64,000 nt of DNA from a virus: the IMG/VR virus record IMGVR_UViG_3300044609_000656, positions 61,802-125,801 of that record; one strand, given 5' to 3'. This document shows positions 4,270-56,057 of this stretch, piece after piece; the stretch's first letter is position 1; every line of letters starts with the position of its first letter. The position numbers and the translations under genes are program-made. The notes under the pieces were generated by a model. It made no database searches and was not told where the DNA came from. It was given only the letters and a program-made list of their open reading frames with translations.

Positions 4270-4986
4270 ATGTCTAATATTGTTAAATTGATTGCTGTTA
4301 CTCAAGGTGCAGGAGAACTTGCTGGAAAGTCTGCACAGGAAGTAATTACATACAATGCTCGTGTAAGCAATCCAAGTAATCAACTTAAATTTGATACTGC
4401 TGCTGGACTTCTTCGTTATTGTATTAAGCAAAATCATTGGTCTATCTTCGAGCAAGCAGATATGACTCTTGAAATCAATACGACTCGTGGTATCGCAGCT
4501 CAAGTGCTTCGTCATAGGTCCTTCACATATCAGGAATTTTCACAACGTTACGCAGATACAAAACTACTTACTGATCTTCCTGAGGTTCCTGAACTTCGCA
4601 GGCAAGACGAAAAGAATCGTCAGAACTCAACTAATGATTTGGATGAACATGTAAGGGAAAAGTTTGAGGGAATGATTGAACAGCACTTTGAAGAATCACA
4701 ACGCCTTTACGATAAGATGCTTGATGCAGGTGTTGCAAAGGAATGTGCAAGGTTTGTGCTTCCACTCGCAACCCCCACCAGAATCTACATGAAGGGTTCT
4801 GTAAGGTCATGGATCCATTATATTGACCTACGCTCTGCTCACGGCACTCAGAAGGAGCATATGGACATCGCAGAAGCAGCACGTTGCGTCTTTATCTGTC
4901 AGTTCCCTGATATTGCTAAAGCACTTGGTTGGGAACCAGAGAACTGTCCAGAATGTATTGATGCCCCATCTATTATCATCCAATAA
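4270..4986 (+). CDS. thyX: Flavin-dependent thymidylate synthase
   Basis: 238 residues, the normal ThyX size. The signature RHR...S is present: Arg81-His82-Arg83, then SFTYQEF and Ser91, followed by QRY. ThyX methylates dUMP to dTMP using methylene-tetrahydrofolate, FAD and NADPH, and is independent of ThyA. Cyanophages carry it to supply dTTP for replication. An ATAAATA late-type motif begins at its stop. Confidence 0.95.
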   Translation: MSNIVKLIAVTQGAGELAGKSAQEVITYNARVSNPSNQLKFDTAAGLLRYCIKQNHWSIFEQADMTLEINTTRGIAAQVLRHRSFTYQEFSQRYADTKLLTDLPEVPELRRQDEKNRQNSTNDLDEHVREKFEGMIEQHFEESQRLYDKMLDAGVAKECARFVLPLATPTRIYMKGSVRSWIHYIDLRSAHGTQKEHMDIAEAARCVFICQFPDIAKALGWEPENCPECIDAPSIIIQ

Positions 4987-5256: not shown

Positions 5257-5841
5257 ATGGTTGGGAATGATAAAACAACGGAACAATATAATGTTACGTA
5301 CTCAGACATTGTAGATCTAATAGATAAAAAAAATATTGTTTCAATCTTTCAAGGTAAAACTGAAGCAGGACCAAGAGCTTTAGGTAATAGGTCTATTCTT
5401 TATGACCCTAGAGATTCTGATGCTAAAGAATTTGTTAATTCGGTAAAAAGAAGAGAGTGGTGGAGACCATTTGCTGCCTCAGTCTTACTTGAACATGCTC
5501 ATGAATGGTTTGAAATGTTGACTATAAAAGAATCTCCGTTTATGATGTATGCAATTCCAGTTAAAGAAGAAAAAAAAGAATTAATTCCAGGAGTTCTTCA
5601 TGTTGACGATACTTGCAGAATTCAAACTGTAACTGAAGAACAAAATTATCACTACTATAATTTAATTAAAACCTTTTATAGTAGAACAAACATTCCAATG
5701 TTGTTTAATACTTCGTTTAATCTTGCGGGAGAAGTAATTTGCCATACTCTTTATGATGCTCTTACCACTATCTCTAATAGTCGTATAGAGTATCTTTATC
5801 TTCCAGAAGAAAATAAATTATACACTTGTTTAAATGACTGA
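5257..5841 (+). CDS. Carbamoyltransferase C-terminal domain as a separate gene
   Basis: 194 residues covering only the C-terminal (YrdC-like) domain of NodU/CmcH carbamoyltransferases: GKTEAGPRALGNRSIL, RREWWRPFAAS, PGVLHVDDTCRIQTV, then NTSFNLAGE. In the family this domain binds carbamoyl phosphate and ATP and forms the carbamoyl-adenylate. The kinase-like N-terminal domain is encoded by the next gene, two bases downstream, so the halves appear in reversed order. They probably assemble in trans to move carbamoyl onto a hydroxyl of an unknown substrate. Confidence 0.85.
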   Translation: MVGNDKTTEQYNVTYSDIVDLIDKKNIVSIFQGKTEAGPRALGNRSILYDPRDSDAKEFVNSVKRREWWRPFAASVLLEHAHEWFEMLTIKESPFMMYAIPVKEEKKELIPGVLHVDDTCRIQTVTEEQNYHYYNLIKTFYSRTNIPMLFNTSFNLAGEVICHTLYDALTTISNSRIEYLYLPEENKLYTCLND

Positions 5842-5843
5842 TT

Positions 5844-6956
5844 ATGTACATCCTTGGAGTTAACATATCACACCATCCATCTCTTGCTCTTCTTAAAGAT
5901 GGAGAACTCATATATTATTTGGAAGATGATAGATGGAACAAAAGAAAGGAAGAACCATGGACGTTAAAAAGTTATATTCGTTCTATCACTGATATTTTAA
6001 AGTATACAAAACATCTTGACCACATTATCTTTGTATCCTTTTGTAGAGGTGATAGTTATACAGAAGATTTTTATGCTGAAGAATCTGATAAGGAGATGAT
6101 TGAGGAGGTTAAAAAACAATTATCTCAATGGACAATAACTTACGGAGAAGAGCATTATTATCTGGAACATCATTTGTATCATGCATGTAGTGCTTTTTAT
6201 GGGTCAGAATTTAATGAGGCGGCTGCATTAGTTTTAGATGGTGGTGGTGCATATGTTAGAGATTACATACGCAATAGAGAATCTGAATCTATGTTTTACT
6301 TTTCAGAGACTGGAAAGTGTGAATTGATTAGTCAAGTTTTTACTCCAAGTTGTATTACTTACTTTGATCCACCATTTGAAATTGAGGATAATAAAATTTT
6401 ATCTTCAACTGGAAGTTGTGGTTGGTTGTTTAACTCTATTGCTGCAGTTACTAGACTACATTCTGCTGGTAAGATTATGGGGTTAGCACCTTATGGTAAT
6501 TCAAGTGAACTTGATAATGATGTTTGGTTTGATTATGATCAAAAAACGGATCGATGGTATACTAACAATAAAAATGTATTAAATACTATTAGAAAGATTT
6601 ATGAAAATGATGATGTAAATCCTAATTTTGATGAATCTTTTTTAAAAAACCCAACTTTTGAACAAAATTCAAATCTTGCAAAAAAACTACAGAATGAAAC
6701 TAAAGAGCATACTATTAGACTAATACAGATGTTACTTGATAAAGTTCAAACAAATAACATTGTTTTATCTGGTGGTTACTTTTTAAACTGTGTTAATAAT
6801 TATGAGTATATTAAAGCATTTCCAAATGTCAATTTTTATGTTGACCCATTATCTCATGATGGTGGAACTGCTGTTGGTGGTGCCAAATATGTTTGGCATC
6901 ATCTCCTAAACAAAAAAACAAAGTATCCATTAAAGAATTTATTTCTTGGTGGATAA
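5844..6956 (+). CDS. Carbamoyltransferase N-terminal (ASKHA-like) domain as a separate gene
   Basis: 370 residues matching the N-terminal domain of NodU/CmcH enzymes: GVNISHHPSLALLKDGEL at the start, the metal-site segment HHLYHACSAFYGS, ALVLDGGGAY, AGKIMGLAPYG, then LSGGYFLNCVNN and DPLSHDGGTAVGG. This domain transfers carbamoyl from the adenylate to the acceptor. The protein stops where the C-terminal domain would begin in a normal enzyme; that domain is the gene immediately upstream. Compare the intact paralogue at 48099. Confidence 0.85.
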   Translation: MYILGVNISHHPSLALLKDGELIYYLEDDRWNKRKEEPWTLKSYIRSITDILKYTKHLDHIIFVSFCRGDSYTEDFYAEESDKEMIEEVKKQLSQWTITYGEEHYYLEHHLYHACSAFYGSEFNEAAALVLDGGGAYVRDYIRNRESESMFYFSETGKCELISQVFTPSCITYFDPPFEIEDNKILSSTGSCGWLFNSIAAVTRLHSAGKIMGLAPYGNSSELDNDVWFDYDQKTDRWYTNNKNVLNTIRKIYENDDVNPNFDESFLKNPTFEQNSNLAKKLQNETKEHTIRLIQMLLDKVQTNNIVLSGGYFLNCVNNYEYIKAFPNVNFYVDPLSHDGGTAVGGAKYVWHHLLNKKTKYPLKNLFLGG

Positions 6957-33273: not shown

Positions 33274-33301
33274 TACCCTCTGTTTATGGTTTTTACTATG
33301 A

Positions 33302-33308
33302 ATAAATA
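33302..33308 (+). promoter_or_regulatory. Late-type promoter motif ATAAATA
   Basis: ATAAATA at 33302-33308, 36 bases before the start of the giant fibre gene at 33338, in one of the few gaps between genes. Confidence 0.5.
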
Positions 33309-39194: not shown

Positions 39195-40037
39195 ATGAAT
39201 TTTACTATATTATCAAACCCACCATATCAAGATAATAATAAAGCAAAAAATAATAAACTTTGGTATAAGTTTATTGAATTGGACATCAATCTTCTTCAAA
39301 ATGGCGCAACCATGGCAAAGGTTACGCCATCATCTTTTATTGGAACAACTGGATTTGGCAAAAAGTTCTTTCAAAAATGTCAAACAATTTATAACCTAAT
39401 TCAAATTGATTATACTTCCGATAAGTATTTTACTGAAGGTGTGTCTATTTGTTCATGGATTTTAAAAAAAGAACCATATAAAGGAGTTACAAAAGTTATA
39501 CATGAGACTGGAATCCATTATTTGGATTTGAGAGATGGACTCCCTTTGTTTGGAGAAGAAAAATTATTACATGCTATTTTTAATAAAATTGCAAATTCAA
39601 ATCATCCAAGGATACCTCTTAAGATTGGGCAGGACATTCCAAAAGATGAGTACTGTGATGATGGAAAGTACGAAGTTTACGCCTCAGGAAAAAATATAAA
39701 AAGAACTAATGTTCTTCCGACTACGGGAGACTTACTAAAATTTGTAGTGCCATATTCTTGTTCATATACTGACAGATTTATCACAAATGGATACATCGGT
39801 ATGTTAAACTCATGGTGCCCTATCAAAGATGAAGAGGGAGGTAAATTATTATCAACTATATTTGATATTCCTTTAATTAAGTTGTTTGTTGAAAACTATA
39901 AAACTACTGCTGGATTCGCTGCAGCAGTTAAAAATGCAGAAGTTCCTCTTATAAAGGATTTTAATGATGTGCATCAACAATTTGATTTTACATCTGAAGA
40001 AATAGAGTATTTGAGAGATAAAAATGTCATCCAATAA
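39195..40037 (+). CDS. N6-adenine methyltransferase, catalytic (NPPY) half
   Basis: 280 residues from the ATG at 39195; a GTG at 39189 is possible. The protein begins directly with motif IV, SNPPYQ (residues 7-12), followed by ATMAKVTPSSFIG, then a probable target-recognition region (KYEVYASGKNIKRTN, YTDRFITNGYIGMLN). The AdoMet-binding motif I is absent; it is in the next gene, which overlaps by 14 bases. The two should work as one split enzyme methylating adenine in phage DNA. Confidence 0.75.
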   Translation: MNFTILSNPPYQDNNKAKNNKLWYKFIELDINLLQNGATMAKVTPSSFIGTTGFGKKFFQKCQTIYNLIQIDYTSDKYFTEGVSICSWILKKEPYKGVTKVIHETGIHYLDLRDGLPLFGEEKLLHAIFNKIANSNHPRIPLKIGQDIPKDEYCDDGKYEVYASGKNIKRTNVLPTTGDLLKFVVPYSCSYTDRFITNGYIGMLNSWCPIKDEEGGKLLSTIFDIPLIKLFVENYKTTAGFAAAVKNAEVPLIKDFNDVHQQFDFTSEEIEYLRDKNVIQ

Positions 40038-40443
40038 AAATAAACATAATGAGTCTTTAGGGTCTGAAGTTGAAAGGTCAGACCAGAGAATTTCTGAGAC
40101 TGGAGAAGTTTTTACTCCACCAGATTTGGTTAATGAATTGATTGAGTGTATGGATCAAAGTTTGTTCAAAAATCCCGATTCAAAATTCCTTGATAATTCT
40201 GCTGGAAATGGTAATTTTATAGTAGAATTAAAAAATAAATTATGCAGATATCATGATGAGGACCATGTAATAAACAATATGTTGTATGCTGTTGAGTTAA
40301 TGGAGGATAATCATCGTGAATTATGTAAGAGACTTGGAATTCCCACAACTCATCCACATTATGTTTGTTCAGATGCACTTGAATATCATTACCGATTTGA
40401 TGGTACAATAGGTCATCCCACCTTAGACCAATTTTTTAACTGA
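40024..40443 (+). CDS. N6-adenine methyltransferase, AdoMet-binding half
   Basis: 139 residues. TGEVFTPPDLVNELI (residues 26-40) is the motif X-type segment and FLDNSAGNGNF (55-65) is motif I, the AdoMet site (usually DPacGsGxF). YAVELMEDNHRELCKRL fits motif II. There is no NPPY; that is in the gene immediately upstream. The halves are thus encoded in the reverse of the order normal for gamma-type adenine methylases. Confidence 0.75.
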   Translation: MSSNKNKHNESLGSEVERSDQRISETGEVFTPPDLVNELIECMDQSLFKNPDSKFLDNSAGNGNFIVELKNKLCRYHDEDHVINNMLYAVELMEDNHRELCKRLGIPTTHPHYVCSDALEYHYRFDGTIGHPTLDQFFN

Positions 40444-42316: not shown

Positions 42317-42479
42317 ACTTAAGCATCAACGTCTTCAAGCATGGTTGCGTGAGCATCAATGTGATGATATTGAATATCTTGGTGAGAAGGAAGGTGAATA
42401 TTGGTATCGTATTGGACCTCACGAAATTACATCAGATCAATTTGAAGATATTGAATTTGTTGGAATGGTTGATGTTTAA
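42297..42479 (+). CDS. Small hypothetical protein
   Basis: 60 residues from the ATG at 42297, preceded by AAGGAGG at the right distance (42281-42287). Contains RLQAWLREHQCDDIEYLGEK and ITSDQFEDIEFVG. Acidic, no known domain. Its stop lies inside the following oxygenase gene. Confidence 0.6.
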   Translation: MKISQSELKHQRLQAWLREHQCDDIEYLGEKEGEYWYRIGPHEITSDQFEDIEFVGMVDV

Positions 42480-42957
42480 AGAGTTTTTTGTAGAAGATGA
42501 GGTAAGTGATTACTTCAATCTTCTACTTAATTTTGTTTCTAATTATCCAGAGACTTTTAAGGATAAAAAACAAAGTTCTTTAAGTGGAAATTGTTTTTAC
42601 ACGTTAAATCTTTTGGATAATATTAACTCAAAAATCTTTTATAACTATATTGATAAAGTTAAATTATTGTGTGAGGATATTTTAAATTTAAAATTAAAAT
42701 ATTTTTATATTCATATGATTGATTATCAAAATGGTGGTAAAATGAATGTGCATAAGCACAACCACAATGAAGATTATAGTTTTATACTTTACTTAAATTC
42801 TTGTAATGATGGTGAAACCATGATTTATATTGATGATAATCAATATAAGATTATTCCAGAAAAAAATAAAGTGTTACTATTTTCTTCTCACATACCTCAT
42901 TCTGCAGAATACTCTGAATCTAAAAGAGTTCTTGTTGGTGGGTTAAGAACCAAGTAG
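42472..42957 (+). CDS. Fe(II)/2OG oxygenase-like protein of the modification island
   Basis: 161 residues from the ATG at 42472. The metal-binding region is VHKHNHNEDYSFILYLN, followed by GETMIYID, and the distal His and Arg are in SSHIPHSAEYSESKRVLVGGLR. It fits a compact 2OG oxygenase. It starts the run of modification enzymes up to 52117. The substrate is unknown. Confidence 0.6.
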   Translation: MFKEFFVEDEVSDYFNLLLNFVSNYPETFKDKKQSSLSGNCFYTLNLLDNINSKIFYNYIDKVKLLCEDILNLKLKYFYIHMIDYQNGGKMNVHKHNHNEDYSFILYLNSCNDGETMIYIDDNQYKIIPEKNKVLLFSSHIPHSAEYSESKRVLVGGLRTK

Positions 42958-42963
42958 GAAATT

Positions 42964-43140
42964 ATGGAAAAACATCAAAAAAGGCGCGATGCATTTAATC
43001 TTTTTTATGAGAGCGTCTTAAAACCAGATTATGAGTTGCGTGAAATTGCCCATGAGCAACAGTGTTATTATGAGTTGATGGAATGGAGGAAAGAAATACT
43101 TACATACTTGGACCTAAAAAGAATAGAAGAATTTAACTGA
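42964..43140 (+). CDS. 58-residue helical small protein
   Basis: Starts at the ATG at 42964 and ends one base before the radical-SAM gene. Charged and helical (YELREIAHEQQCYYELMEWRK). It could be a partner or regulator of its neighbour, but that is only context. Confidence 0.5.
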   Translation: MEKHQKRRDAFNLFYESVLKPDYELREIAHEQQCYYELMEWRKEILTYLDLKRIEEFN

Positions 43141-43141
43141 T

Positions 43142-43960
43142 ATGTTAAAAGTACCTCACGAGATACAATTACACGTTACTCACTCTTGCAATTTAACTTG
43201 TGAGGGATGCACTCATTATATGAATCAAGGTCACTCTGGTTCTGTATCTCTTGAACAGGCATCAGAGTGGATGGAAAACTGGAGTAAAAGAATCATACCT
43301 CAAAGGTTCACATTGATGGGTGGAGAGCCTGCTTTACATCCAGATTTGACTGAATTTGTATATTTGGCAAGAGAAAAGTGGTCAAATTCATATTTGGATT
43401 TAATTTCTAATGGATTTTATCTGTATAAACATCCAAATCTTTGGGAAGCATTAAAAAAAACAAGAACAACTCTTGGTGTATCTGTTCATTCTGATGGTGA
43501 CCCAGAATATAGGCAGAAGTTTGAACCAGTTTATAATCTAATGAGAGAATGGATTGCAAAAGGAGCGCCAGTTGAAATGCGTCCATCAATTATTCATTGG
43601 ATTAGACAATATAAAGGGTTTGGTGATAAAATGGAACCATTTGAAGATGATAATCCAAAGTTAAGTTGGAAGTATTGTGTATCAAAGTTGTGTGTTCAAT
43701 TGCATGAAGGAAAACTTTGGAAGTGTCCCGCTCTTGCATATCTTCCAATGCAAGCAAATAAATATAATCTATCTGAAAAGTGGGAACCATATCTTAAATA
43801 TACACCATTAGAGCATACCTGTACGGATGAAGAATTAAAAGACTTTTTTACTCGTAAGGAAGAATCTTATTGCTCTATGTGTCCTGCCAAAGAAGAGTAT
43901 TTTATTCCTAAAAATCCACTCTTACCAGTAAGTTATTGGAAAAAGTTATATGACACTTGA
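43142..43960 (+). CDS. Radical SAM protein, copy 1
   Basis: 272 residues. The 4Fe-4S/AdoMet motif is Cys16-x3-Cys20-x2-Cys23 (HSCNLTCEGC). TLMGGEPALHPDL is the GGE motif that contacts AdoMet. The C-terminal part has more Cys: KYCVSKLCVQ, LWKCPAL and YCSMCP, like the auxiliary cluster (SPASM/twitch-type) of peptide-modifying enzymes. It shares its layout with the protein at 47273. Reaction unknown; peptide or sugar modification is possible. The end overlaps the next gene by 11 bases. Confidence 0.8.
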   Translation: MLKVPHEIQLHVTHSCNLTCEGCTHYMNQGHSGSVSLEQASEWMENWSKRIIPQRFTLMGGEPALHPDLTEFVYLAREKWSNSYLDLISNGFYLYKHPNLWEALKKTRTTLGVSVHSDGDPEYRQKFEPVYNLMREWIAKGAPVEMRPSIIHWIRQYKGFGDKMEPFEDDNPKLSWKYCVSKLCVQLHEGKLWKCPALAYLPMQANKYNLSEKWEPYLKYTPLEHTCTDEELKDFFTRKEESYCSMCPAKEEYFIPKNPLLPVSYWKKLYDT

Positions 43961-44603
43961 TATTGGTCCAGTCTATCCAGAAGATCCTAGAGATGTAGAG
44001 CACTTTGATTTTTGTGGCAATGAAATCTACAGGGCATATAATCTTCTAAGTAAATATGATATGAAAAATCTCTTAGAAGAGATTGATAATGAATTAGAAG
44101 TTTGTGAAGATAAATGGGATTTATCTGTTGAAGCAACTAATAGATTGTCTCAACGTAAGTTGTGGTATAAAAAAAGTTGGACAAACTTTTTTAAATTAGT
44201 TAAAAAACATCTTTATACTTATTCAGAAATCACTAATGACCCAAGAATAAAAGAGTATAAAGTCCAATCATATTGGGCAAAACGGATGAGGGGGACAACA
44301 GAGGAGAACTATGGGAATGAATTGTATATAAACTATGGTAATAGTCATAGTCATGATAATTTTGATCTTGGTATGATTTATTATCTTAAAAATCCCTCTA
44401 GAATATATGGAACTCTAATTGAGAATAAAGATAGAGAAATCATCATTCCAGGAGATGAAAATTCTTTATTAATACATCATTCTCATGTTAATCATCAACC
44501 AGTTATGCCACCACCTATTGTGGCAAAAGAATACTATAGGTGTGTAATTGTGGTTGATTTTATGCATCCTTCAAAAGTAGATTACTATGAACGCAGAAGA
44601 TAG
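43950..44603 (+). CDS. Putative 2OG-oxygenase-like protein following the radical SAM gene
   Basis: 217 residues. NYGNSHSHDNFDLGMIYYLK and PGDENSLLIHHSHVNHQPV suggest a double-stranded beta-helix with metal-binding His, and YYRCVIVVDFM supplies the late Arg. The N-terminal ~100 residues are helical and unassigned. It is translationally coupled to the radical-SAM gene, so the two probably act on the same substrate. Confidence 0.5.
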   Translation: MTLDIGPVYPEDPRDVEHFDFCGNEIYRAYNLLSKYDMKNLLEEIDNELEVCEDKWDLSVEATNRLSQRKLWYKKSWTNFFKLVKKHLYTYSEITNDPRIKEYKVQSYWAKRMRGTTEENYGNELYINYGNSHSHDNFDLGMIYYLKNPSRIYGTLIENKDREIIIPGDENSLLIHHSHVNHQPVMPPPIVAKEYYRCVIVVDFMHPSKVDYYERRR

Positions 44604-44820
44604 AATTAAATACGCAAGTATAACTCAAAAAATTAATAAAAAAAGAATATCAGACTTAACAGAAGATGAATATGATTGGTTAAAATATCATCCAAATTTA
44701 ATTTCTGAAATTAGAAAACATAAACAAAAGAATGATATTATGAATGCTACTGTCGGCAACAAAAATACGATTGAAGAAATTTTGTTTGATTTGGACTTGT
44801 CAGACCGAATGTATCGATGA
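44587..44820 (+). CDS. Small charged hypothetical protein
   Basis: 77 residues beginning inside the end of the previous gene. Lys- and Asp/Glu-rich (KKRISDLTEDEYDWLKYHPNL), no domain recognised. A probable promoter for the next transcript overlaps its last codons. Confidence 0.5.
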   Translation: MNAEDRIKYASITQKINKKRISDLTEDEYDWLKYHPNLISEIRKHKQKNDIMNATVGNKNTIEEILFDLDLSDRMYR

Positions 44821-44826
44821 TATAAT
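44797..44826 (+). promoter_or_regulatory. Sigma70-like promoter (TTGTCA-18-TATAAT)
   Basis: TTGTCA at 44797-44802 and the exact TATAAT at 44821-44826 with an 18-base spacer. It would start the transcript with the RNA-repair genes. Confidence 0.65.
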
Positions 44827-44850
44827 TGATAATATCTACTATATTGAACA

Positions 44851-45045
44851 ATGCATTCTATCTTTGACATGATGCACGACGAACGTCGTTACGGGTGGGT
44901 TGTAGACAAAAGATATGATTGGATTAATATGCTTCATAAAATGGAAAAAAACAATCCTAGAAGATTTTCAGAATTTCAATATTCAAAAGAAAATATCTAT
45001 CATCATTTAGATAGAATACAACAAGAGCAAAATGTTTATGACTGA
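44851..45045 (+). CDS. Small hypothetical protein leading the RNA-repair operon
   Basis: 64 residues, starting 24 bases after the -10 box. Rich in His, Arg and aromatic residues (MHDERRYGWVVDKRYDWINML), perhaps RNA-binding. Two bases separate it from the RNA ligase gene. Confidence 0.55.
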   Translation: MHSIFDMMHDERRYGWVVDKRYDWINMLHKMEKNNPRRFSEFQYSKENIYHHLDRIQQEQNVYD

Positions 45046-45047
45046 GT

Positions 45048-45788
45048 ATGGATTATTCTTTTCCTGTAATCTACAATATTTCTCAAATACTTAAAGAACT
45101 AAAAAAAGAAGATCATAACATCATCAATCAAGATGAGTTTTGCATAGTAAATTGTAGTAGTAGCGAAACTCCTTTGTTGAGAGAAATAAGAGGACTTGCA
45201 TTTAATCTTGAAGGTAATATAATTGCTAGACCATACCATCAAGCATTTACGTTAGACCAAAGTTTTGAAACTAATTTCGATAAGATTATAAAAAAACTTA
45301 AAAATCTTAATGTTTTTTTGGAAAAATTAGATGGTGTAATGGTATATCCTGTTCCGACCCCTTACGGATACAGACTAACTACAAAAAATGGAATTAATTC
45401 TACATCATTCAATGCTGAAGTTTTTATAGCAAATAAAACTTATTATAATGAGTTTATAAAAATATGCTTAGCAAAAAACTGTACGCCCATTTTTGAGTGG
45501 TGTTCTCCAAACGATAAAATTGTGGTAGAATATCCAGAAGAAAACTTAGTATTAACTGGATTGCGTAATATTAAAACAGGAGTGTATTGCAAATATATGT
45601 TCCTTCGCAAACTTGCAGTTAATTTAAAAATTCCTGTGGTAAATAAAATGTGTGTCAACTACTATGAAATTTCTCAATATATTGATGAAATTAAAAATCA
45701 ACAAGATGCCGAAGGTGTGGTAGTTAGGTTTGATAGTGGGCACATGTTTTATATTAAATCGGAAGCATACTTGCAGAAAAAAAGTTAA
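45048..45788 (+). CDS. RNA ligase, T4 Rnl1-like catalytic domain only
   Basis: 246 residues. Nucleotidyltransferase motifs: Lys93 in EKLDG (motif I), REIRGLAFN upstream, Glu150 in PIFEWCSPNDKIVVEY (IIIa), Glu222 in AEGVVVRF (IV) and Lys237 in YIKSEAY (V). T4 Rnl1 has Lys at both positions of KIK in motif V; here the first is Tyr235. The C-terminal tRNA-recognition domain of T4 Rnl1 (374 residues) is missing. It seals RNA 3'-OH and 5'-phosphate ends using ATP, probably in tRNA repair. Confidence 0.8.
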   Translation: MDYSFPVIYNISQILKELKKEDHNIINQDEFCIVNCSSSETPLLREIRGLAFNLEGNIIARPYHQAFTLDQSFETNFDKIIKKLKNLNVFLEKLDGVMVYPVPTPYGYRLTTKNGINSTSFNAEVFIANKTYYNEFIKICLAKNCTPIFEWCSPNDKIVVEYPEENLVLTGLRNIKTGVYCKYMFLRKLAVNLKIPVVNKMCVNYYEISQYIDEIKNQQDAEGVVVRFDSGHMFYIKSEAYLQKKS

Positions 45789-45793
45789 CTTCT

Positions 45794-46270
45794 ATGGAAC
45801 ACTTAAAAATTAAACCATACCAAACAATTTTAGTTTTAAATTCTAGTTACGAACCAATTAATTTTACTAATTGGAGACGAGCTGTAATTTTAGTTCTAAA
45901 AGAAAAAGTTCAGGTTATATCTGAAAGAGTTATTCGATTACTAAATTATATTAAAGTTCCAATTAATTATGCTGCAAAATGTAAACCATCTAGAGCAATG
46001 GTTTATAAAAGAGATCGTAATACTTGTCAATATTGCGGTTCTACTACTAGACTGACCATAGACCATGTGCTCCCTCGTAGTAAAGGTGGAGATGACTCTT
46101 GGGAAAATTTAGTGGTTGCATGTTCTTCTTGTAATACTAAAAAAGGAAATAAATTATTAGAACATACTAATATGAGATTGATTCGTCAACCAAGAGCACC
46201 TTGGAATAAAGTTGCGTTTGATCTTGCTAATTGTAATGTTCCTGAGTGGAGAGAATATTCATATGAATAA
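45794..46270 (+). CDS. HNH endonuclease-like protein
   Basis: 158 residues. The HNH finger is clear: CQYCG, then LTIDHVLPRSKGGDDSWENL and ACSSCNTKKGN (two CxxC pairs around the DH...N core). The N-terminal SSYEPINFTNWRRAVILVL segment is common in cyanobacterial-type HNH proteins. It overlaps the phosphatase gene by eight bases, so it looks like a regular operon member and not a recent homing insertion. The target is unknown. Confidence 0.8.
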   Translation: MEHLKIKPYQTILVLNSSYEPINFTNWRRAVILVLKEKVQVISERVIRLLNYIKVPINYAAKCKPSRAMVYKRDRNTCQYCGSTTRLTIDHVLPRSKGGDDSWENLVVACSSCNTKKGNKLLEHTNMRLIRQPRAPWNKVAFDLANCNVPEWREYSYE

Positions 46271-46724
46271 ACTTCGTAATCCTTGTGTAATTTTTGATTT
46301 AGATGGCACATTATGCAATGTAAAACATAGACAGCAATTTATTGCAACTCACCCAAGAAATTGGGATGCTTGGAATGCTGGTATTCTACAAGACAGTATA
46401 AATGTTCCTGTTGGAGTTGTTTTTAAGTCTTTGAAAAATACATATTCCAAATTAAAAATGGTCATTCTTACTGGAAGAACGGATAATTATAAGGATGAAA
46501 CTGAATTGTGGTTAAATAAAAATGCAATTGAATATGATGAATTGTATATGAGAAAACAGAATGACCGTAGAGATGATTCTGTAGTAAAGGGTGAGTTTGT
46601 GGATTTTTTGGAAAAGAAGTATAATATATTGTGTGTTTTTGAAGACCGTAAAAGAGTTGTTGATATGTGGGTGAAAAGGGGTATATGGGTATTTGATTGT
46701 GGTCAAACAAAAGGAGATTTTTAA
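46263..46724 (+). CDS. HAD phosphatase, polynucleotide kinase 3'-phosphatase-like
   Basis: 153 residues from the ATG at 46263. HAD motifs: nucleophile Asp12 and Asp14 in FDLDGTLCN, VILTGRTDNY (motif II), MRKQNDRRDDSVVKGEF (motif III region) and CVFEDRKRVVDMW (motif IV). Order and spacing match the 3'-phosphatase domain of T4 PseT/Pnkp; the 5'-kinase domain is absent. With the RNA ligase two genes upstream it forms a partial RNA-repair set, removing 3' or 2',3'-cyclic phosphates before ligation. Confidence 0.75.
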   Translation: MNKLRNPCVIFDLDGTLCNVKHRQQFIATHPRNWDAWNAGILQDSINVPVGVVFKSLKNTYSKLKMVILTGRTDNYKDETELWLNKNAIEYDELYMRKQNDRRDDSVVKGEFVDFLEKKYNILCVFEDRKRVVDMWVKRGIWVFDCGQTKGDF

Positions 46725-47276
46725 ATGTTTTTTCGTAAATTAAACAAGCAGTTTTTTATAAACAACTATAATAAGACTGGTAGAAAAATAGAATATGGAA
46801 TGGATACTCCATATGGATTTGCTGGTATTAAATATTCATATATTAAATCAGAGAATGAAACTGATTTGCTTCAAGTAATACCAGAATCTTATAGAGATAA
46901 TTGTACTCTGTCATTAATGGAGCTGAATTATAAAATTCCTCCACATACTGATAGTAATATTGAGGCTATTGTAAACTTTTATATTAAGACTGATAGATGT
47001 GTAACACAGTTCTATTATCCTCCAGGAGAAACACCTACAACTAAAGTCGCAAATCAAACAGACGGAGCAATCTTTCATGAGGGTTATTTGAGAAAGTCTG
47101 TCAGGTTTATGGCACATCCTGGAGATGCTTATTTGCTTGATGTATCTAAACCACACTCGGTATTTCCAATGGAAGCAGGTCTTCCTGATCGTAAAGCAAT
47201 TTGTTTGCAAATTCTTTATAAGTCTTTTGATGAGGCAGTGGAAATGTTGAAAGAAACTGGATATATTGATGAATGA
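46725..47276 (+). CDS. Fe(II)/2OG oxygenase-like protein before radical SAM copy 2
   Basis: 183 residues. PPHTDSNIEAIVNFYIKT gives the His-x-Asp, GDAYLLDVSKPHSVFPM the distal His and PDRKAICLQ the co-substrate Arg. The segment TQFYYPPGE lies between. It starts at the base after the phosphatase stop and overlaps the radical-SAM start by four bases, so it is coupled on both sides. Confidence 0.65.
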   Translation: MFFRKLNKQFFINNYNKTGRKIEYGMDTPYGFAGIKYSYIKSENETDLLQVIPESYRDNCTLSLMELNYKIPPHTDSNIEAIVNFYIKTDRCVTQFYYPPGETPTTKVANQTDGAIFHEGYLRKSVRFMAHPGDAYLLDVSKPHSVFPMEAGLPDRKAICLQILYKSFDEAVEMLKETGYIDE

Positions 47277-48124
47277 AACAATTTGATACTAAACAAATAG
47301 AACTGCATGTAACTCATACTTGCAATTTTACTTGTGAGGGATGCTCTCATTATTCAAATCACGGTCATTCTGGGACATTAACCCTAGAAACTATAAAAGA
47401 TTGGCTATATATTTGGGGTCAAAGAATAAGACCAAAAACTTTTGTTATTCTTGGTGGTGAACCAACTTTAAATAAAGAACTTACTGATATTGTATATTTG
47501 GTGAGGATGATTTATCCTGATCCATATACACAAATTGACCTTGTATCTAATGCTAGTTTTTTACATAATCATCCAAAACTCCCAAAAGCACTGATAGCAA
47601 CTCAGACAAATTTAGCAATATCTATACACAGCACCACTCATAAAAACTATGTAAAAAAGTTTAAACGTGGATATACTCTTGCTAAGCAATGGAGACATGA
47701 TCTTGGAGTGCATGTAGAATTTTGGGATTATACTAATGAATATTGGACACCACAATATACTGGGTTTGGAAATAATATGATGCCTTATGAGCATAATAAT
47801 CCTAGGCAAAGTTGGGAAAAGTGTTTATCTAAACATGCTATCCAACTACATGAAAATAAATTGTGGAAGTGTCCAGCATTGGCTTATTTACCAATGCAAT
47901 CTAAAAAATATAATTTAAGCGATAAATGGAATGTATATCTTAAATATCAACCATTAGAACCAGATTGTAGTGATGATGAGCTGGAAAAGTTTTTAAACAA
48001 AGAAGATGAGTCATATTGTTCAATGTGTCCTGCAAATAAGGATAAAAATTTTGTAAAAGAAGATCCAACACTACCAGTAAGTTATTGGGAGAAAAAATAT
48101 GATAACATGGGGGATATCATCTAA
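47273..48124 (+). CDS. Radical SAM protein, copy 2
   Basis: 283 residues, a close paralogue of the protein at 43142. Cys17-x3-Cys21-x2-Cys24 (HTCNFTCEGC) binds the cluster; VILGGEPTLNKEL is the GGE motif. The C-terminal Cys set (EKCLSKHAIQLH, LWKCPALAYLPMQ, YCSMCP) and the ending LPVSYW are conserved with copy 1. The centre (HVEFWDYTNEYW) differs, which may mean a different substrate. It overlaps the carbamoyltransferase by 26 bases. Confidence 0.8.
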   Translation: MKQFDTKQIELHVTHTCNFTCEGCSHYSNHGHSGTLTLETIKDWLYIWGQRIRPKTFVILGGEPTLNKELTDIVYLVRMIYPDPYTQIDLVSNASFLHNHPKLPKALIATQTNLAISIHSTTHKNYVKKFKRGYTLAKQWRHDLGVHVEFWDYTNEYWTPQYTGFGNNMMPYEHNNPRQSWEKCLSKHAIQLHENKLWKCPALAYLPMQSKKYNLSDKWNVYLKYQPLEPDCSDDELEKFLNKEDESYCSMCPANKDKNFVKEDPTLPVSYWEKKYDNMGDII

Positions 48125-49523
48125 TAGTCATAATGCTGCATTGTCAGTATTTGTAAAAGACGAATTGGTATTCGCCAGTGAGAGTGAACGTTTTAGTAAA
48201 ATTAAAAATGATCCATATATTTCAGATTCTTTATTAAACTATGCTTTAAGATATGGAAAACCAGAATTAATTTGTTGGTATGAAAATCCTTTAAAAAAGA
48301 GGATGAGACAAATTTATGCAGGTCAAGGTCCATTTGTGAATAATTTTGAAAGATATTATGAGTGCAAGCACAAATTTTTTAACCATCACTATACCCATGC
48401 ATGTGGTGGTTATTTTACTAGTAAATTTAAACATGCTGTTATTTTAGTCATAGATGCTATTGGAGAATTTCAAACACTTACAATTTGGGAAGCAAGTGGC
48501 AATAATTTAAAGTTAAAGTATGAATTAAAGTATCCAAATAGTGTGGGATTACTGTATTCTGCAATGACTCAGCGGTGTGGTTTAAAACCGAATGAAGAAG
48601 AATATATTTTGATGGCTTTATCTGCATTGGGAGATAAACATAAATTAAAAGATGCTATTTTTGATGATTTCATAACAGAAGATTTTAAATGTAAGTTAAA
48701 TTTACATCAGGGATGTAAAGATTGGAGACCAGAAGAATCAAAAGAAGATATTGCTGCGGCAACTCAAGAAGTGTATGAGATTCTTTTTAATAATGCACTG
48801 AGACTTGCTAAAAAATTGGTGCCAACTAATAACCTTGTATTGATGGGGGGTTGTGCTTTAAATTGCGTAGCAAATAAACATGCTTATAATCATTTTAAAA
48901 ATGTGTGGATAATGCCAGCACCTGGAGACAGTGGATCTGCGATTGGTGCTGTATTGGCGCACAAGAAAATTCATATCAAATTCACACCCTATCTTGGATA
49001 TTATCTGCAACATAAACATACAAACACTGAGATTGTAAAATATTTGTATGAGCATAAAGTGTGTGGACTTGCGAGAGGTAGATCGGAGTTTGGTCCAAGA
49101 GCATTGGGTGCAAGGAGTTTAATAGCAGACCCATCTGATCCAGAAATAAAAGATAGAGTTAATAAAATCAAAAATAGAGAATCTTATAGACCATTCTCTC
49201 CAGTTGTTCCTATAGAGTTTGCCAATACTTATTTTGATATGCATCAGGATTTGATAGAAAGTCCATTTATGCAACACACCGTTAGATGTAAATATCCAGA
49301 AAAGTTCCCTGGAATTGTTCATGTTGATGGAACAAGTAGATTGCAAACTGTTAAAAAAAGTGATGCTCCTAGACTTTATAATTTACTATATCAATGGAAA
49401 GCAAAAACTGGTCATCCCATGCTTTTAAATACTAGTTTAAATATTAAAGGGCAACCGATGTTAAATGATGAGAGGGATTGTGATAAGTGGTCTAGACGCT
49501 ATAATATTCAAATATTCTCATGA
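48099..49523 (+). CDS. Full-length NodU/CmcH-type carbamoyltransferase
   Basis: 474 residues with both domains in the normal order. N-terminal: GISSNSHNAALSVF, NHHYTHACGGYF, VILVIDAIGE, LMGGCALNCVAN and PGDSGSAIGAV. C-terminal: RSEFGPRALGARSL, RESYRPFSPVVP, VHVDGTSRLQTV and NTSLNIKGQP. It is shorter than typical NodU (about 570). It uses carbamoyl phosphate and ATP to carbamoylate a hydroxyl, for example on a sugar. It is coupled to the radical-SAM gene upstream and to an SGNH-type gene downstream. Confidence 0.9.
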   Translation: MITWGISSNSHNAALSVFVKDELVFASESERFSKIKNDPYISDSLLNYALRYGKPELICWYENPLKKRMRQIYAGQGPFVNNFERYYECKHKFFNHHYTHACGGYFTSKFKHAVILVIDAIGEFQTLTIWEASGNNLKLKYELKYPNSVGLLYSAMTQRCGLKPNEEEYILMALSALGDKHKLKDAIFDDFITEDFKCKLNLHQGCKDWRPEESKEDIAAATQEVYEILFNNALRLAKKLVPTNNLVLMGGCALNCVANKHAYNHFKNVWIMPAPGDSGSAIGAVLAHKKIHIKFTPYLGYYLQHKHTNTEIVKYLYEHKVCGLARGRSEFGPRALGARSLIADPSDPEIKDRVNKIKNRESYRPFSPVVPIEFANTYFDMHQDLIESPFMQHTVRCKYPEKFPGIVHVDGTSRLQTVKKSDAPRLYNLLYQWKAKTGHPMLLNTSLNIKGQPMLNDERDCDKWSRRYNIQIFS

Positions 49524-50308
49524 CATTTTTAAAATTATCTGAAAGATTTGAACAAAAATTACTTCTTCCAAATCAAGAACTAATCACTGGTAATCATGAA
49601 TGGTTTGACCAAGATACTAAGGAACTTTATAAAACAAATCTAAAAGAACAACCTGATGATTGGTATTATCGGGTTAATAAAGTTGAATATAATTTAAATA
49701 GTGCTGGATATAGAACAAAAGATTTCAATCAAATAAATTGGTCAAAATCAATCGTGATTTTTGGATGTTCTCATGTATTTGGTGTTGGAACTTCAGAGGA
49801 AGATACTATATCTGGACAATTAGAAAGTATGACAAATTGCTCAGTGATTAATTTAGGTTCTACTGGGTCATCCTCTTTATTCACTTTACATAATTCTATA
49901 CTGTTAAATGAGTCATATCCAACTCCAAAGGCAGTTGTTAGTATTTGGACTTCTCCATATAGACTTCCATATTATACTGAAGATCGCGTGATGCATTGTG
50001 GAAATTGGAATTATGATAGATTTAAAATTGGTTATTATTGGAATATTGATAAGAATAATGCAATCACACATTTAAAGTTAAATGCGATGACTTTCCAAGA
50101 ATTTTGGAAAAATAAGACTAATTATTTTGATTTAAGTTTATTTTATGATACTGCTAAAATATTAAATTGTGAATATGTAAATCAAATAGATTCTGCTCGT
50201 GATTTAGTAAAACAAAAATCAGGGTCTTATGTTGCCCATCAAGGAAAATTAACAAATAAAATTATAGCGGGAAGAATAATACAAGGATTAGGATTGCAAG
50301 TTGCTTGA
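49520..50308 (+). CDS. SGNH/GDSL-type hydrolase-like protein, copy 1
   Basis: 262 residues. The block SIVIFGCSHVFGVG (Ser after GC in place of GDS), then VINLGSTGSSSLFTLHN, is the nucleophile and glycine/Asn part of the SGNH fold; a C-terminal ARDL...AHQG gives Asp and His. The family cleaves or transfers O-acetyl and other acyl esters, often on sugars. Copy 2 at 51332 shares the layout. Overlaps the carbamoyltransferase stop by four bases. Confidence 0.7.
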   Translation: MTFLKLSERFEQKLLLPNQELITGNHEWFDQDTKELYKTNLKEQPDDWYYRVNKVEYNLNSAGYRTKDFNQINWSKSIVIFGCSHVFGVGTSEEDTISGQLESMTNCSVINLGSTGSSSLFTLHNSILLNESYPTPKAVVSIWTSPYRLPYYTEDRVMHCGNWNYDRFKIGYYWNIDKNNAITHLKLNAMTFQEFWKNKTNYFDLSLFYDTAKILNCEYVNQIDSARDLVKQKSGSYVAHQGKLTNKIIAGRIIQGLGLQVA

Positions 50309-50322
50309 TAATGTGTTATCAT
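50294..50322 (+). promoter_or_regulatory. Possible sigma70-like promoter (TTGCAA-17-TATCAT)
   Basis: TTGCAA at 50294-50299 and TATCAT at 50317-50322, spacer 17. TGATAA and TTATCA (50306-50311 and 50316-50321) form an inverted repeat across the -10 region that could bind a regulator. Confidence 0.45.
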
Positions 50323-50344
50323 TACACCAGATGCTATAGAGGAC

Positions 50345-50494
50345 ATGGCAATCCGTACATTTTCTGACACAAATTCAAATGACTGGAGTTGGGAAGAGAC
50401 ACCAGAGACTATTGAAGCATTAAAGCAACTTCATAATACAGTAAAACAAGTAAATGAAAATAAAACTCTAAAACCAAAACCTGTGAAAAAATGA
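50345..50494 (+). CDS. 49-residue small protein
   Basis: Starts at the ATG at 50345 after GAGGA and overlaps the next start (ATGA). Acidic N-terminus (DTNSNDWSWEETPETIEALKQ) and a Lys-rich tail. No domain. Confidence 0.55.
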   Translation: MAIRTFSDTNSNDWSWEETPETIEALKQLHNTVKQVNENKTLKPKPVKK

Positions 50495-50703
50495 CAGAAG
50501 ATAAAAAGTTAATTGACGGATGTTTTTACGTAGATCAAAAAAAGTATGGACTTTGGTATTCCACAGACGAAGAAGGTAATGGACTTATCACCTCTCTCAC
50601 TGAGCAGTCGTGTATTCAAGCAACCCGTTTTTATCTTAAAGGACGGCAGGAAGGTTGGACTGAGACCAGAACTTATGAAGGTGAAGTAGGTGGAAAACTC
50701 TAA
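50491..50703 (+). CDS. Small conserved protein
   Basis: 70 residues: FYVDQKKYGLWYSTDEEGNG and CIQATRFYLKGRQEGW. Beta-rich with aromatic residues; function unknown. Its end overlaps a GTG-started gene. Confidence 0.6.
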   Translation: MTEDKKLIDGCFYVDQKKYGLWYSTDEEGNGLITSLTEQSCIQATRFYLKGRQEGWTETRTYEGEVGGKL

Positions 50704-50857
50704 AGAATATCCATATCATGTGTTAGATCCAACAACACCTTGGTATGAGTGGTTATGTTATTGTGAAATTTGTCACCAATTAAATGTTATTGGACAACCA
50801 TCTTTAGGTAGATTTGCTGCATATCGACGTTATTTAAAATCGGTAGGTGTATTGTGA
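50690..50857 (+). CDS. 55-residue small protein with GTG start
   Basis: The GTG at 50690 lies within the previous gene's end, behind GAAGTAGG. The peptide has YHVLDPTTPWYEWLCYCEIC and ends in a basic AAYRRYLKSVG. Cys-x-Cys-x2-Cys could bind metal. The stop overlaps the next GTG start. Confidence 0.5.
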   Translation: MENSKEYPYHVLDPTTPWYEWLCYCEICHQLNVIGQPSLGRFAAYRRYLKSVGVL

Positions 50858-51162
50858 ACATTAAAAACTTTATTAACTGGTTCTTTGTATCCGACAAAGA
50901 AAAGAAAGTAATCGTAGATTGTGCTGATGGTTTTATTGGAAGTAAATTTACTTTACTTGATTTAATTCAATCTTTAGAGACACGGGTGGAATATCTTGAA
51001 CAAAAATATAAAGGAGCACTTGAGGATATTAAGAGGTTAGAAATAGAAAATATAGAGACTACAAACTCTTTGTATGAAATGGAGAACCGTCTTCAAGCAC
51101 AAATTGATGCTCACTGCCCACCAATATATAATATGAAGCAATATACATTGGGAGATAAGTAA
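50854..51162 (+). CDS. Coiled-coil small protein
   Basis: 102 residues with a GTG start overlapping the preceding TGA. Residues about 35-90 form a long coiled coil (LIQSLETRVEYLEQKYKGAL, then RLEIENIETTNSLYEMENRL). It may be an oligomeric scaffold or regulator; I recall similar proteins in cyanophages. Confidence 0.6.
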   Translation: MNIKNFINWFFVSDKEKKVIVDCADGFIGSKFTLLDLIQSLETRVEYLEQKYKGALEDIKRLEIENIETTNSLYEMENRLQAQIDAHCPPIYNMKQYTLGDK

Positions 51163-51335
51163 TGTACGAATTGGATGATTTTGAAAAAGCATTAGCACAT
51201 TTTGGAACAAGAGTTGATATTATTTGTGCTCTTGAAATGGGTGATAAAATTGATGCTCAAACAGCATATAAAGAGATTAAATCAGAACTGAAAGAACTTA
51301 AAAAAGCAAAGAAGCAATATCTTAAAGATCAGTGA
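51162..51335 (+). CDS. 57-residue conserved helical protein
   Basis: The ATG overlaps the previous stop (TAATG). MYELDDFEKALAHFGTRVD followed by a Lys-rich helix. I recall this N-terminal pattern in small cyanophage proteins. The stop overlaps the GTG start of the next gene. Confidence 0.6.
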   Translation: MYELDDFEKALAHFGTRVDIICALEMGDKIDAQTAYKEIKSELKELKKAKKQYLKDQ

Positions 51336-52117
51336 AGGTCAATCCAAATATAATACGTTCAATCAATAATCAAGAGTTTATTCCACTACCAAATACAACA
51401 GTTCAAAATTTTGGACAATCCATAAAAAATGGTGATAAATTTGATATATGTGGTAGTTGGGATTTTTTTGGTTCTGATGATTGCGATAAATATCAGTTAA
51501 ATTTACAACTCCAATCTCCCGACTGGTACTATCGAAAAAATAAAGTAAAATATACTTTAAATTCTCATGGATATAGAACCAAAGAGTTTAATGATATCAA
51601 TTGGTCAAATTCAATAGTTATTTTTGGTTGTTCGTATATTTTTGGAACTGGTATAGATGATTCTCATACAATACCTGCATTTTTGGAAGAACTTTATGAA
51701 ATACCTGTAATTAATTTGGGAATGGGAGGTTCATCAATACAGTTTGCTTTACATAATTCATTAATGCTTTATAAAAAATATGGAACTCCAAAATGTGTGA
51801 TTTATTGTATGCCAGGTATTACAAGATATTTGATGTATCAAAGAAATCGCGTAGAGTTAAAACTTGATTGTGAAAATAATAGTAAATTTGTAGATCATTT
51901 GGTTCCATTTAATCTTATAAATGTTGAGTTAATTAGGAATTTGTGGGAAGGAAAGACTCAATATTATGAATTCTCTTTTTTTCCAACAACATCAAAATTA
52001 TTAGGTTGTGATTTGCATAAACCAATACCAGATGATTATGCTAGAGATATGAGTCATCCTGGCATAAAATCTAATAAATTAACCGCACAAAACATTTACA
52101 AATTTTTGAAGTTATGA
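51332..52117 (+). CDS. SGNH/GDSL-type hydrolase-like protein, copy 2
   Basis: 261 residues with a GTG start. Paralogue of 49520: PDWYYRKNKVKYTLNSHGYRT, then SIVIFGCSYIFGTGIDDSHT, VINLGMGGSSIQFALHNS and a clear Asp-His pair in YARDMSHPGIKSN. The catalytic layout is more complete here than in copy 1. Probably an esterase or acyltransferase on a surface sugar or other small substrate. A separate coupled mini-gene follows. Confidence 0.72.
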   Translation: MKVNPNIIRSINNQEFIPLPNTTVQNFGQSIKNGDKFDICGSWDFFGSDDCDKYQLNLQLQSPDWYYRKNKVKYTLNSHGYRTKEFNDINWSNSIVIFGCSYIFGTGIDDSHTIPAFLEELYEIPVINLGMGGSSIQFALHNSLMLYKKYGTPKCVIYCMPGITRYLMYQRNRVELKLDCENNSKFVDHLVPFNLINVELIRNLWEGKTQYYEFSFFPTTSKLLGCDLHKPIPDDYARDMSHPGIKSNKLTAQNIYKFLKL

Positions 52118-54106: not shown

Positions 54107-54906
54107 TGAAAAAATTTACATTAATTGAACAGGATCGATACATTGGTATTGATGATGTTGGTATCTTCTTTGATGGAGATAAATGGCCTTTTGTCGATAT
54201 AGAACATCTTTGGGCGATTCAATGGAGGGATGATGGCACAGAGGATGGTAATGGGTGGATTGAATATGATTCGCCCGTTCCTAATACTCCATGCACTCGT
54301 AAAGACCTCAAACAGTATGTTGAGCATTTTGATGCTGAGTATGAGCGTCAAATGATTATAAAGAGAGAAAGAGAGGAAGAAGAAGGTAAAAAAGTTCTTT
54401 CTTGGCAAGATGCTATGAAAGAATTGGAAGAGCAAATGGAGGAAATGCAAAAGAGGCATGAAGAAAACATTGAGTCTATGAAGGAAGACCATGATTATCA
54501 AATACAAAAAGTTCATGAACGTGTAGCAGAAGCACACGAGAATCTCTTTTACTCTTCAAATACCCTTCAAGATAACATTGAGGAGAGTAAGACTGCATTT
54601 CAGTCCGAGCGTGGATATGATAATATCACGATTTTTGATGGTAGTGTAGATCCATCTCTATTTGATGATTCTGTAGATGAATCATTCTTTGATGATAAAG
54701 GAACGGAATCTTTGCTTGGTACTTACGATATTCAAACAAAACCAGATGATATAATTAAAGACTTTTCAAATATTGACTTAAGTGTACTGGATAGTGAATT
54801 TAATCTTGAGTTATTATTTGAAGAAGATCCAACCGAGCAAGTTGTAAATGAAATTGAAGAACTGATTGAAGAAGTTGAAAATGAGGAGGATTCCACTACT
54901 AAATGA
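54106..54906 (+). CDS. Conserved protein with coiled coil and acidic tail
   Basis: 266 residues. The N-terminal ~75 (DVGIFFDGDKWPFVDIEHLW, AIQWRDDGTEDGNGWIEY) is a module I recall from many phages. A long coiled coil (about 80-160, with EELEEQMEEMQKRHEENIE-type heptads) and a very acidic C-terminus follow. Perhaps a scaffold or regulator; no known activity. Confidence 0.6.
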   Translation: MKKFTLIEQDRYIGIDDVGIFFDGDKWPFVDIEHLWAIQWRDDGTEDGNGWIEYDSPVPNTPCTRKDLKQYVEHFDAEYERQMIIKREREEEEGKKVLSWQDAMKELEEQMEEMQKRHEENIESMKEDHDYQIQKVHERVAEAHENLFYSSNTLQDNIEESKTAFQSERGYDNITIFDGSVDPSLFDDSVDESFFDDKGTESLLGTYDIQTKPDDIIKDFSNIDLSVLDSEFNLELLFEEDPTEQVVNEIEELIEEVENEEDSTTK

Positions 54907-56057
54907 TCTCTAAATTATTTGAGGACAACTATGTTGTTGTCCCTAATTTTATATCATCGGAAAAAGCAAAACAATTAGCAGAAGAATTTAAAGAATATGC
55001 AGATACTTATGACTTGAAAGATGATTCTCAAGTATCTGGATGTAAAAGTAAATATGATTATATTTCTTTTGTAGAGTTATTGTGTGAAAAAACAACCACA
55101 GTGTCTCAGTTAATTGGAGAGACTGTGGTTCCCACGTATTCTTATGCTAGAATTTATCAACACGGTAATGAATTAAAACCCCATATTGACAAGTCTCATT
55201 GTGAGATATCTTTAACTATTAATTTAGATTGCGATCAACCGTGGGCAATATGGATTGAGACTCCTAAAAAGGTTAAAAAGGAAGTTATCTTGAATCCTGG
55301 AGATGCAATGTTGTATCTGGGAATAGAAGGTCCTCATTGGAGAGAACCATTTAAGGGAACTTATTGTAATCAAGTATTTTTGCATTATGTGAGAAGTCGT
55401 GGTCCTTATTTTTCTAGTTATTTTGATAAAGACCATAGAATAACCGAAGATGCGATTAAACCAGTTGAAACTAAACCAGTTGTGACAAAAAGTTTGAATA
55501 GTCTTGCAAGTTATATCAAAATTTATGATGACATTCTTACAAAGGAAGAGTGTGATTATATCATATCAGAATATAAAGATGCAGCAGAGTGGAGAACATC
55601 TGAGATAGGTGTTAATGGTAATCAAAATACTTCTGTTAGGAACTGCGATATTATTAACATATCTCTTGGTCATGTAATTGCTTCAAATCAAGATGTGAGG
55701 AAGAAAATAGATGATATTCTTTTTAACAAGTCTGCAGATGCAGCAAAAAAGTATATTGTAGACTTCCCAGATTGTTTTTTACAGTCCGATAGTGGATATG
55801 ACCTTTTAAGATATCAAGAGGGTGGATATTATATTCAACACACTGATAGTTTTAAAACACAACCAAGAACGATTTCAATGTCATTTAATTTAAATGATGA
55901 CTATGTTGGTGGTGAATTTGCATTCTTTGATAGAGAAATGCAAATTAGAACAAGACCAGGGTCTGTAATTGTATTCCCATCAAACTTTATGTACCCTCAT
56001 GAGGTTATGCCTGTCGTCAAAGGAACACGTTATTCAATTGTTACTTGGTTTACTTGA
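54903..56057 (+). CDS. Two-domain Fe(II)/2OG oxygenase
   Basis: 384 residues with two oxygenase domains in tandem. Domain 1 (about 1-185): ELKPHIDKSHCEISLTINL and NPGDAMLYLGIEGPHWREPF with His-x-Asp and distal His. Domain 2 (about 200-384), prolyl-4-hydroxylase-like: GGYYIQHTDSF, VGGEFAFFDREMQIRTRPGS, NFMYPHEVMPV and GTRYSIVTWF with the co-substrate Arg. Both appear catalytically complete. The substrate is unknown; possibly virion or host protein. Confidence 0.78.
   Translation: MISKLFEDNYVVVPNFISSEKAKQLAEEFKEYADTYDLKDDSQVSGCKSKYDYISFVELLCEKTTTVSQLIGETVVPTYSYARIYQHGNELKPHIDKSHCEISLTINLDCDQPWAIWIETPKKVKKEVILNPGDAMLYLGIEGPHWREPFKGTYCNQVFLHYVRSRGPYFSSYFDKDHRITEDAIKPVETKPVVTKSLNSLASYIKIYDDILTKEECDYIISEYKDAAEWRTSEIGVNGNQNTSVRNCDIINISLGHVIASNQDVRKKIDDILFNKSADAAKKYIVDFPDCFLQSDSGYDLLRYQEGGYYIQHTDSFKTQPRTISMSFNLNDDYVGGEFAFFDREMQIRTRPGSVIVFPSNFMYPHEVMPVVKGTRYSIVTWFT

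Follow-up and report, generated by a model that had tools for sequence, protein, structure and literature searches.

Introduction

To our knowledge, twitch radical S-adenosylmethionine (SAM) enzymes that epimerize or dehydrogenate sugars, among them HygY, NeoN and SpeY, have been described only from antibiotic pathways. The solved carbamoyltransferases closest to the one treated below act on hydroxyls of small molecules, several of which are sugars. A phage carbamoyltransferase makes 5-carbamoyloxymethylcytosine from 5-hydroxymethylcytosine and co-occurs with thymidylate-synthase homologues; carbamoyltransferases of unmodified contigs were found beside glycosyltransferases (PMC8670742). Here we describe a gene island that combines two radical SAM enzymes (rSAM1, rSAM2), 2-oxoglutarate (2OG) oxygenases, a carbamoyltransferase (CT) and two SGNH-hydrolase-like proteins. 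It lies in a stretch of 64,000 nucleotides (the window) that comprises bases 61,802-125,801 of the 125.8-kb IMG/VR virus record IMGVR_UViG_3300044609_000656. The source virus, of freshwater type, is assigned to the cyanophages because two PF00124 reaction-centre genes, read as psbA and psbD, are present elsewhere in the record and the tail fibre of the window matches those of Synechococcus myoviruses, Kyanoviridae among them. We regard the island as probably a cytoplasmic cassette for tailoring a sugar or glycan, probably transcribed late with the tail fibre and with the phage fibre glycan or the host surface glycan as candidate acceptors.

Gene content of the island

The island adjoins the tail-fibre gene. 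The genes named in the initial annotation all exist as open reading frames (window coordinates):

42472-42957, plus strand: 2OG-A, 2OG-Fe(II) oxygenase (PF13640, E 8e-7, above cut-off)
42964-43140, plus strand: small protein of phrog_495 (E 1e-24), function unknown
43142-43960, plus strand: rSAM1, SpeY/HygY-like twitch radical SAM protein with the epimerase-type Cys (PF04055, E 6e-12)
43950-44603, plus strand: 2OG-B, 2OG-oxygenase fold, partner of rSAM1; adjoins a radical SAM gene in two different contexts
46725-47276, plus strand: 2OG-C, probable 2OG oxygenase (all 12 relatives have HxD...H...R)
47273-48124, plus strand: rSAM2, SpeY-like twitch radical SAM protein with Ala where rSAM1 has Cys (PF04055, E 2e-12)
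48099-49523, plus strand: CT, O-carbamoyltransferase of TobZ/Nol type
49520-50308, plus strand: SGNH1, SGNH-hydrolase-like; adjoins the CT in 30 of 32 loci (both SGNH types counted)
51332-52117, plus strand: SGNH2, variable paralogue of SGNH1 (39% identity), missing in marine relatives (L015-L022)

The two coupled gene sets described initially are borne out by overlaps of 11 nt (rSAM1/2OG-B), 4 nt (2OG-C/rSAM2), 26 nt (rSAM2/CT) and 4 nt (CT/SGNH1); that description had omitted the genes between the sets (44587-46724), namely an RNA ligase, an HNH gene (identified by reading its sequence), a PseT-like HAD phosphatase and small open reading frames.

Radical SAM enzymes

The best PDB sequences for a profile built from 55 viral rSAM relatives were 7wzv, 7wzx and 7x0b (E 6.5e-13), all titled 'Twitch Radical SAM Dehydrogenase SpeY'. 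The same entries were the best Foldseek matches of an AlphaFold model of rSAM2 (predicted local distance difference test (pLDDT) score 93.6; E 2.1e-12, TM 0.68, 287 columns); the next-best matches had E-values of 1e-6 or weaker and TM below 0.5. An identification of 7wzv as BlsE was rejected: BlsE has CxxxCxMC, 7wzv lacks it and the fold search names SpeY. Among the 55 sequences, the CxxxCxxC SAM-cluster motif and GGEP are conserved to at least 90% throughout and are invariant for the most part, the cluster Cys being kept in 54-55 of the sequences. The auxiliary-cluster residues C184, C200, C249 and C252 occur in 55 of 55, and at the same four positions in HygY-like and SpeY sequences. Structure prediction, proposed in the initial annotation for the C-terminal Cys region, returned a SpeY-type full-length fold for rSAM2. 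Both proteins group with the twitch radical SAM enzymes that act on sugars in aminoglycoside biosynthesis, and activity on sugars is predicted. The SpeY/HygY-like assignment sharpens the initial statement that such families modify sugars, peptides or nucleotides.

A Streptomyces hygroscopicus homologue, which we take to be HygY, aligns with SpeY over the full domain; its residue 183 is Cys, against Ser in SpeY. At the equivalent position the phage family has Cys, Ala or Asn, with Cys in rSAM1 (C189) and Ala in rSAM2. Of the 23 cellular homologues with a residue there, 22 have Cys. All 13 proteins of rSAM2 type have Ala, and the clade to which a third rSAM copy of this genome belongs has Asn in its 14 members. 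In a tree of 80 rSAM proteins, Ala and Asn each fall on one fully supported branch, so that Cys was lost once to each, and rSAM1 and rSAM2 are sisters (99/95). Most simply, the gene was duplicated in phages and the CT-coupled copy then lost the epimerase Cys. With the S. hygroscopicus homologue taken as HygY, the putative hydrogen-donor Cys of the HygY/NeoN-type epimerases is present in rSAM1 and absent from rSAM2. Mutation of a single cysteine of the HygY epimerase is reported to uncover dehydrogenase activity. Because rSAM1 has Cys and rSAM2 Ala at this position, the former is predicted to be an epimerase and the latter a dehydrogenase. Twitch radical SAM sugar enzymes would then form a broad phage family, in which the one-residue difference of a tandem pair predicts the type of reaction.

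The reactions described next are inferences, as are the sequence in which they run, a common substrate and the acceptor. In rSAM1 a 5'-deoxyadenosyl radical would take hydrogen from a sugar carbon and the Cys would return hydrogen on the other face, giving epimerization as in HygY/NeoN. In rSAM2, which has no such Cys, an electron would pass to the auxiliary [4Fe-4S] cluster and leave a keto-sugar, a dehydrogenation as in SpeY. The 2OG oxygenases would supply a hydroxylation step, the CT would place a carbamoyl group on a hydroxyl, and the SGNH protein would remove or move an acyl group on the same glycan. A more specific proposal is that an aminoglycoside-style phage pathway puts an epimerized or keto, hydroxylated, O-carbamoylated sugar on the phage's own tail-fibre glycan, with loss of one Cys in the duplicated rSAM pair having turned an epimerase into a dehydrogenase; we hold it to be doubtful.

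2OG oxygenases

2OG-B, 2OG-C, SGNH1 and SGNH2 gave no Pfam match above cut-off, and PDB profile searches with 2OG-B, 2OG-C and the SGNH proteins gave no meaningful match. An AlphaFold model of 2OG-B (pLDDT 85) has its best fold matches among PHD2-type 2OG oxygenases (E 2e-6, probability 1.00). Because hhalign against a PF13640-like alignment supported neither protein, 2OG-B was assigned by fold and 2OG-C, a probable 2OG oxygenase, at motif level. HxH...H is kept in 2OG-B of the window and in an opposite-strand 2OG-B-like copy near the third rSAM gene. The copy directly after that gene (L028:14048-14701, with relatives in L080-L099) lacks these residues and is perhaps a non-catalytic paralogue. 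Some 2OG-oxygenase-like proteins carry the PHROGs labels 'DNA endonuclease V' (phrog_274) or 'ferrochelatase' (phrog_3531, phrog_2954), as seen at 42472-42957 and 54903-56057 of the window; these families are likely mislabelled.

Carbamoyltransferase and SGNH proteins

The CT has both the N-terminal and the C-terminal domain (PF02543, E 4e-37; PF16861, E 2e-49), and its nearest solved relatives are 7xb6 (decarbamoylnovobiocin carbamoyltransferase), GdmN and TobZ. Its neighbours (adjacent genes of at least 100 aa) were scored in 42 non-redundant viral loci anchored on the CT. The 32 loci in which SGNH adjacency was counted belong to the clade with at least 60% identity, and the two genes usually overlap by 4 nt. 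Six of the 30 linked SGNH genes encode a different, non-homologous GDSH-type protein, recognized by motif only. In the SGNH proteins the block-I Ser and the C-terminal Asp and His are invariant (22 sequences), an assignment at motif level. The CT-SGNH coupling offers a handle on the role of many unexplained 'Nol-like' carbamoyltransferases of cyanophages, and on the question of whose glycans phages tailor, their own or those of the host surface.

Of the 20 non-redundant SGNH-anchored loci that lack a CT, 17 include, within four genes and often directly upstream, a radical SAM gene (PF04055) from a different family; adjacency was found in 19 of 33 such loci vs 1 of 10 in a small control (p 0.011). 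In L220-L269 (e.g., L235, L239, L246 and L253) the SGNH family is paired with a CNYxCSYC-type radical SAM protein that clusters with SPASM radical SAMs, and some of these clusters add UDP-glucose-dehydrogenase-like, epimerase and APS-kinase-like genes. Another CT of the record adjoins a PfkB kinase and a cytidylyltransferase. Two genes at 5257-6956 of the window encode the parts of a second carbamoyltransferase, the C-terminal part preceding the N-terminal one; elsewhere in the record both fused and split copies occur.

Conservation of gene order and genomic context

Relatives were found by pattern-seeded searches, which favour related loci, with genes called by a simple custom script, and all locus records are fragments. 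The initial annotation had suggested looking for the same gene order in other cyanophages. A search with rSAM2 recovered it in 20 IMG/VR viral loci, down to about 70% protein identity, as 2OG-A, phrog_495, rSAM1, 2OG-B, HNH, 2OG-C, rSAM2, CT, SGNH1 and collar-like genes. Recurrence of this order is above chance. The CT-SGNH and the rSAM-2OG/sugar associations also recur from separate anchors, and a conserved neighbourhood, the lack of which was to mark the genes as unrelated, is thus present. No record of the phage collection has the cassette and no searched cultured phage carries it: rSAM2 had just two matches, S-SCSM2R at 43% and a single-cell virus at 28%, the CT reached at most 39%, SGNH1 and 2OG-B had no match, and near DNA matches were absent from the phage records.

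The sugar context of the rSAM relatives is descriptive, the sole background count of sugar genes concerning the SGNH loci. The third rSAM gene of this genome stands in a run of 2OG, rSAM, 2OG-B-like, 2OG-B-like (opposite strand), GDP-mannose dehydratase, NAD-dependent epimerase (which reads as a GDP-fucose synthase) and GT6 genes; the run is repeated in relatives with a GT11 gene. S-SCSM2R and others have the rSAM gene among glycosyltransferases, a short DegT protein, a 2OG protein and an amidinotransferase.

Expression

33301-33308, plus strand: T4-type late-promoter-like sequence AATAAATA, putative, 29 nt before the tail-fibre start

Going upstream from the cassette, this is the first late-promoter-like sequence found at promoter distance from a gene. 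The window has far fewer copies of the T4-type late core ATAAATA than expected (11 vs 34.7), and TATAAATA does not occur in it (0 vs 8.7 expected); stray late promoters are apparently avoided. Five of the ten plus-strand ATAAATA sites lie 22-29 nt before gene starts, at 4982, 16655, 30284, 33301 (tail fibre) and 52563 (first collar-like gene). The only copies of the motif between 33301 and 52563 lie within rSAM1 and SGNH2, so that transcription from the tail-fibre promoter may extend through the cassette, which is probably transcribed late with the tail-fibre gene. Scans for sigma-70 promoters and terminators remained at chance level. At 39195-40443 there are two short DNA-methyltransferase-like genes, the first matching part of a 1048-1055-aa protein of relatives, of which it is perhaps a truncated remnant.

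Alternative explanations

Several observations weigh against a glycan-tailoring cassette. Sugar genes around SGNH loci without a CT are not enriched (10 of 33 vs 3 of 10 in a small control), and there is no glycosyltransferase inside the cassette itself. Nine CT loci at 55-58% identity (L330-L340) lie between primase- and helicase-like genes of T4 type without an SGNH neighbour. The closest cellular rSAMs, lone homologues on Mesorhizobium chromosomes (L109-L111; 45-48% identity, Cys kept), stand amid housekeeping genes, and no pathway was seen in cellular rSAM neighbourhoods. Finally, rSAM1 (absent from L017-L019), SGNH2, RNA ligase and HAD are gained and lost among relatives. That the genes work together, as first supposed, is upheld for the sugar-modifying families; a single pathway of all genes is not, SGNH2 and rSAM1 being missing in some relatives.

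It is unlikely, in our estimation, that these are unrelated accessory genes that have gathered in a hyperplastic region beyond the tail fibre, with a synteny due only to shared ancestry within a single phage lineage. Cultured cyanophages do differ from one another in what follows the tail fibre, and TalC joins the genes just named as gained and lost. Doubt arises mainly because separate anchors recover the linkage: CT-SGNH adjacency is retained where a different SGNH family has taken over, SGNH genes are found next to rSAM genes of other families as well, and L062 (same contig as L329) keeps rSAM, a 61% identical CT and SGNH in a new order with GDP-mannose dehydratase.

Modification of a protein or peptide, in which the radical SAM and 2OG enzymes act on the tail fibre or on a small co-encoded peptide such as phrog_495, is quite improbable. 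SpeY, a sugar enzyme, is the best profile match and the only full-length fold match, NCBIfam peptide-maturase models all scored below cut-off, and phrog_495 adjoins rSAM1 but does not accompany the rSAM in its other contexts. In favour of this reading, the tail fibre is close by, 2OG oxygenases are interspersed among additional fibre genes in the corresponding region of S-SM2, peptide maturation is a known function of many twitch/SPASM radical SAM enzymes, and the 2OG-B fold resembles protein hydroxylases.

Nucleic-acid modification or repair, whether a hydroxymethylated base is carbamoylated or the block is an RNA-repair operon (RNA ligase and PseT-like phosphatase) with extra modifiers, is very unlikely: it can point to the known 5-carbamoyloxymethylcytosine-making phage enzyme, to the sister CT clade between primase-like and helicase-like genes and to the RNA ligase and PseT-like genes inside the block, but DNA carbamoylation by this CT is disfavoured because no thymidylate-synthase/dCMP-hydroxymethylase (ThyA) homologue was found in its own record or in any of 16 related records, which may be fragments, the glycosyltransferase neighbours of carbamoyltransferases in unmodified contigs (PMC8670742) also argue against it, and many relatives keep the remaining genes without RNA ligase and HAD. 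The DNA-base product considered in the initial annotation is thereby disfavoured as well. Members of the replication-linked sister clade may still modify bases. The differential residues W408, G421 and R423 of PMC8670742 were not used as markers, the text being silent on which state denotes modified DNA.

Comparison with known systems

The phage rSAMs share with SpeY, HygY and NeoN the full-length fold, CxxxCxxC, GGEP, the four auxiliary-cluster Cys and a Cys/non-Cys switch at one position. Unlike them, they are phage-borne, in tandem, shorter (272-283 aa), only about 18% identical, not part of an antibiotic pathway and known here from sequence and model. Both Carbam_trans domains of TobZ, GdmN, the novobiocin enzyme and the phage 'Nol-like' proteins (phrog_1601) are found in the CT, which differs in forming its own clade starting MITWGIS, in its coupling to SGNH and in being shorter than TobZ. 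The 5-hydroxymethylcytosine carbamoyltransferase (eLife 2021, PMC8670742) is likewise phage-borne and of the same family; its thymidylate-synthase partner was not found here. The glycan cluster of S-SCSM2R (PQ898602) has a homologous radical SAM protein (43%) with 2OG oxygenases, as does the island; clusters of that type include glycosyltransferases and an amidinotransferase, whereas here a carbamoyltransferase and SGNH proteins stand beside the tail fibre.

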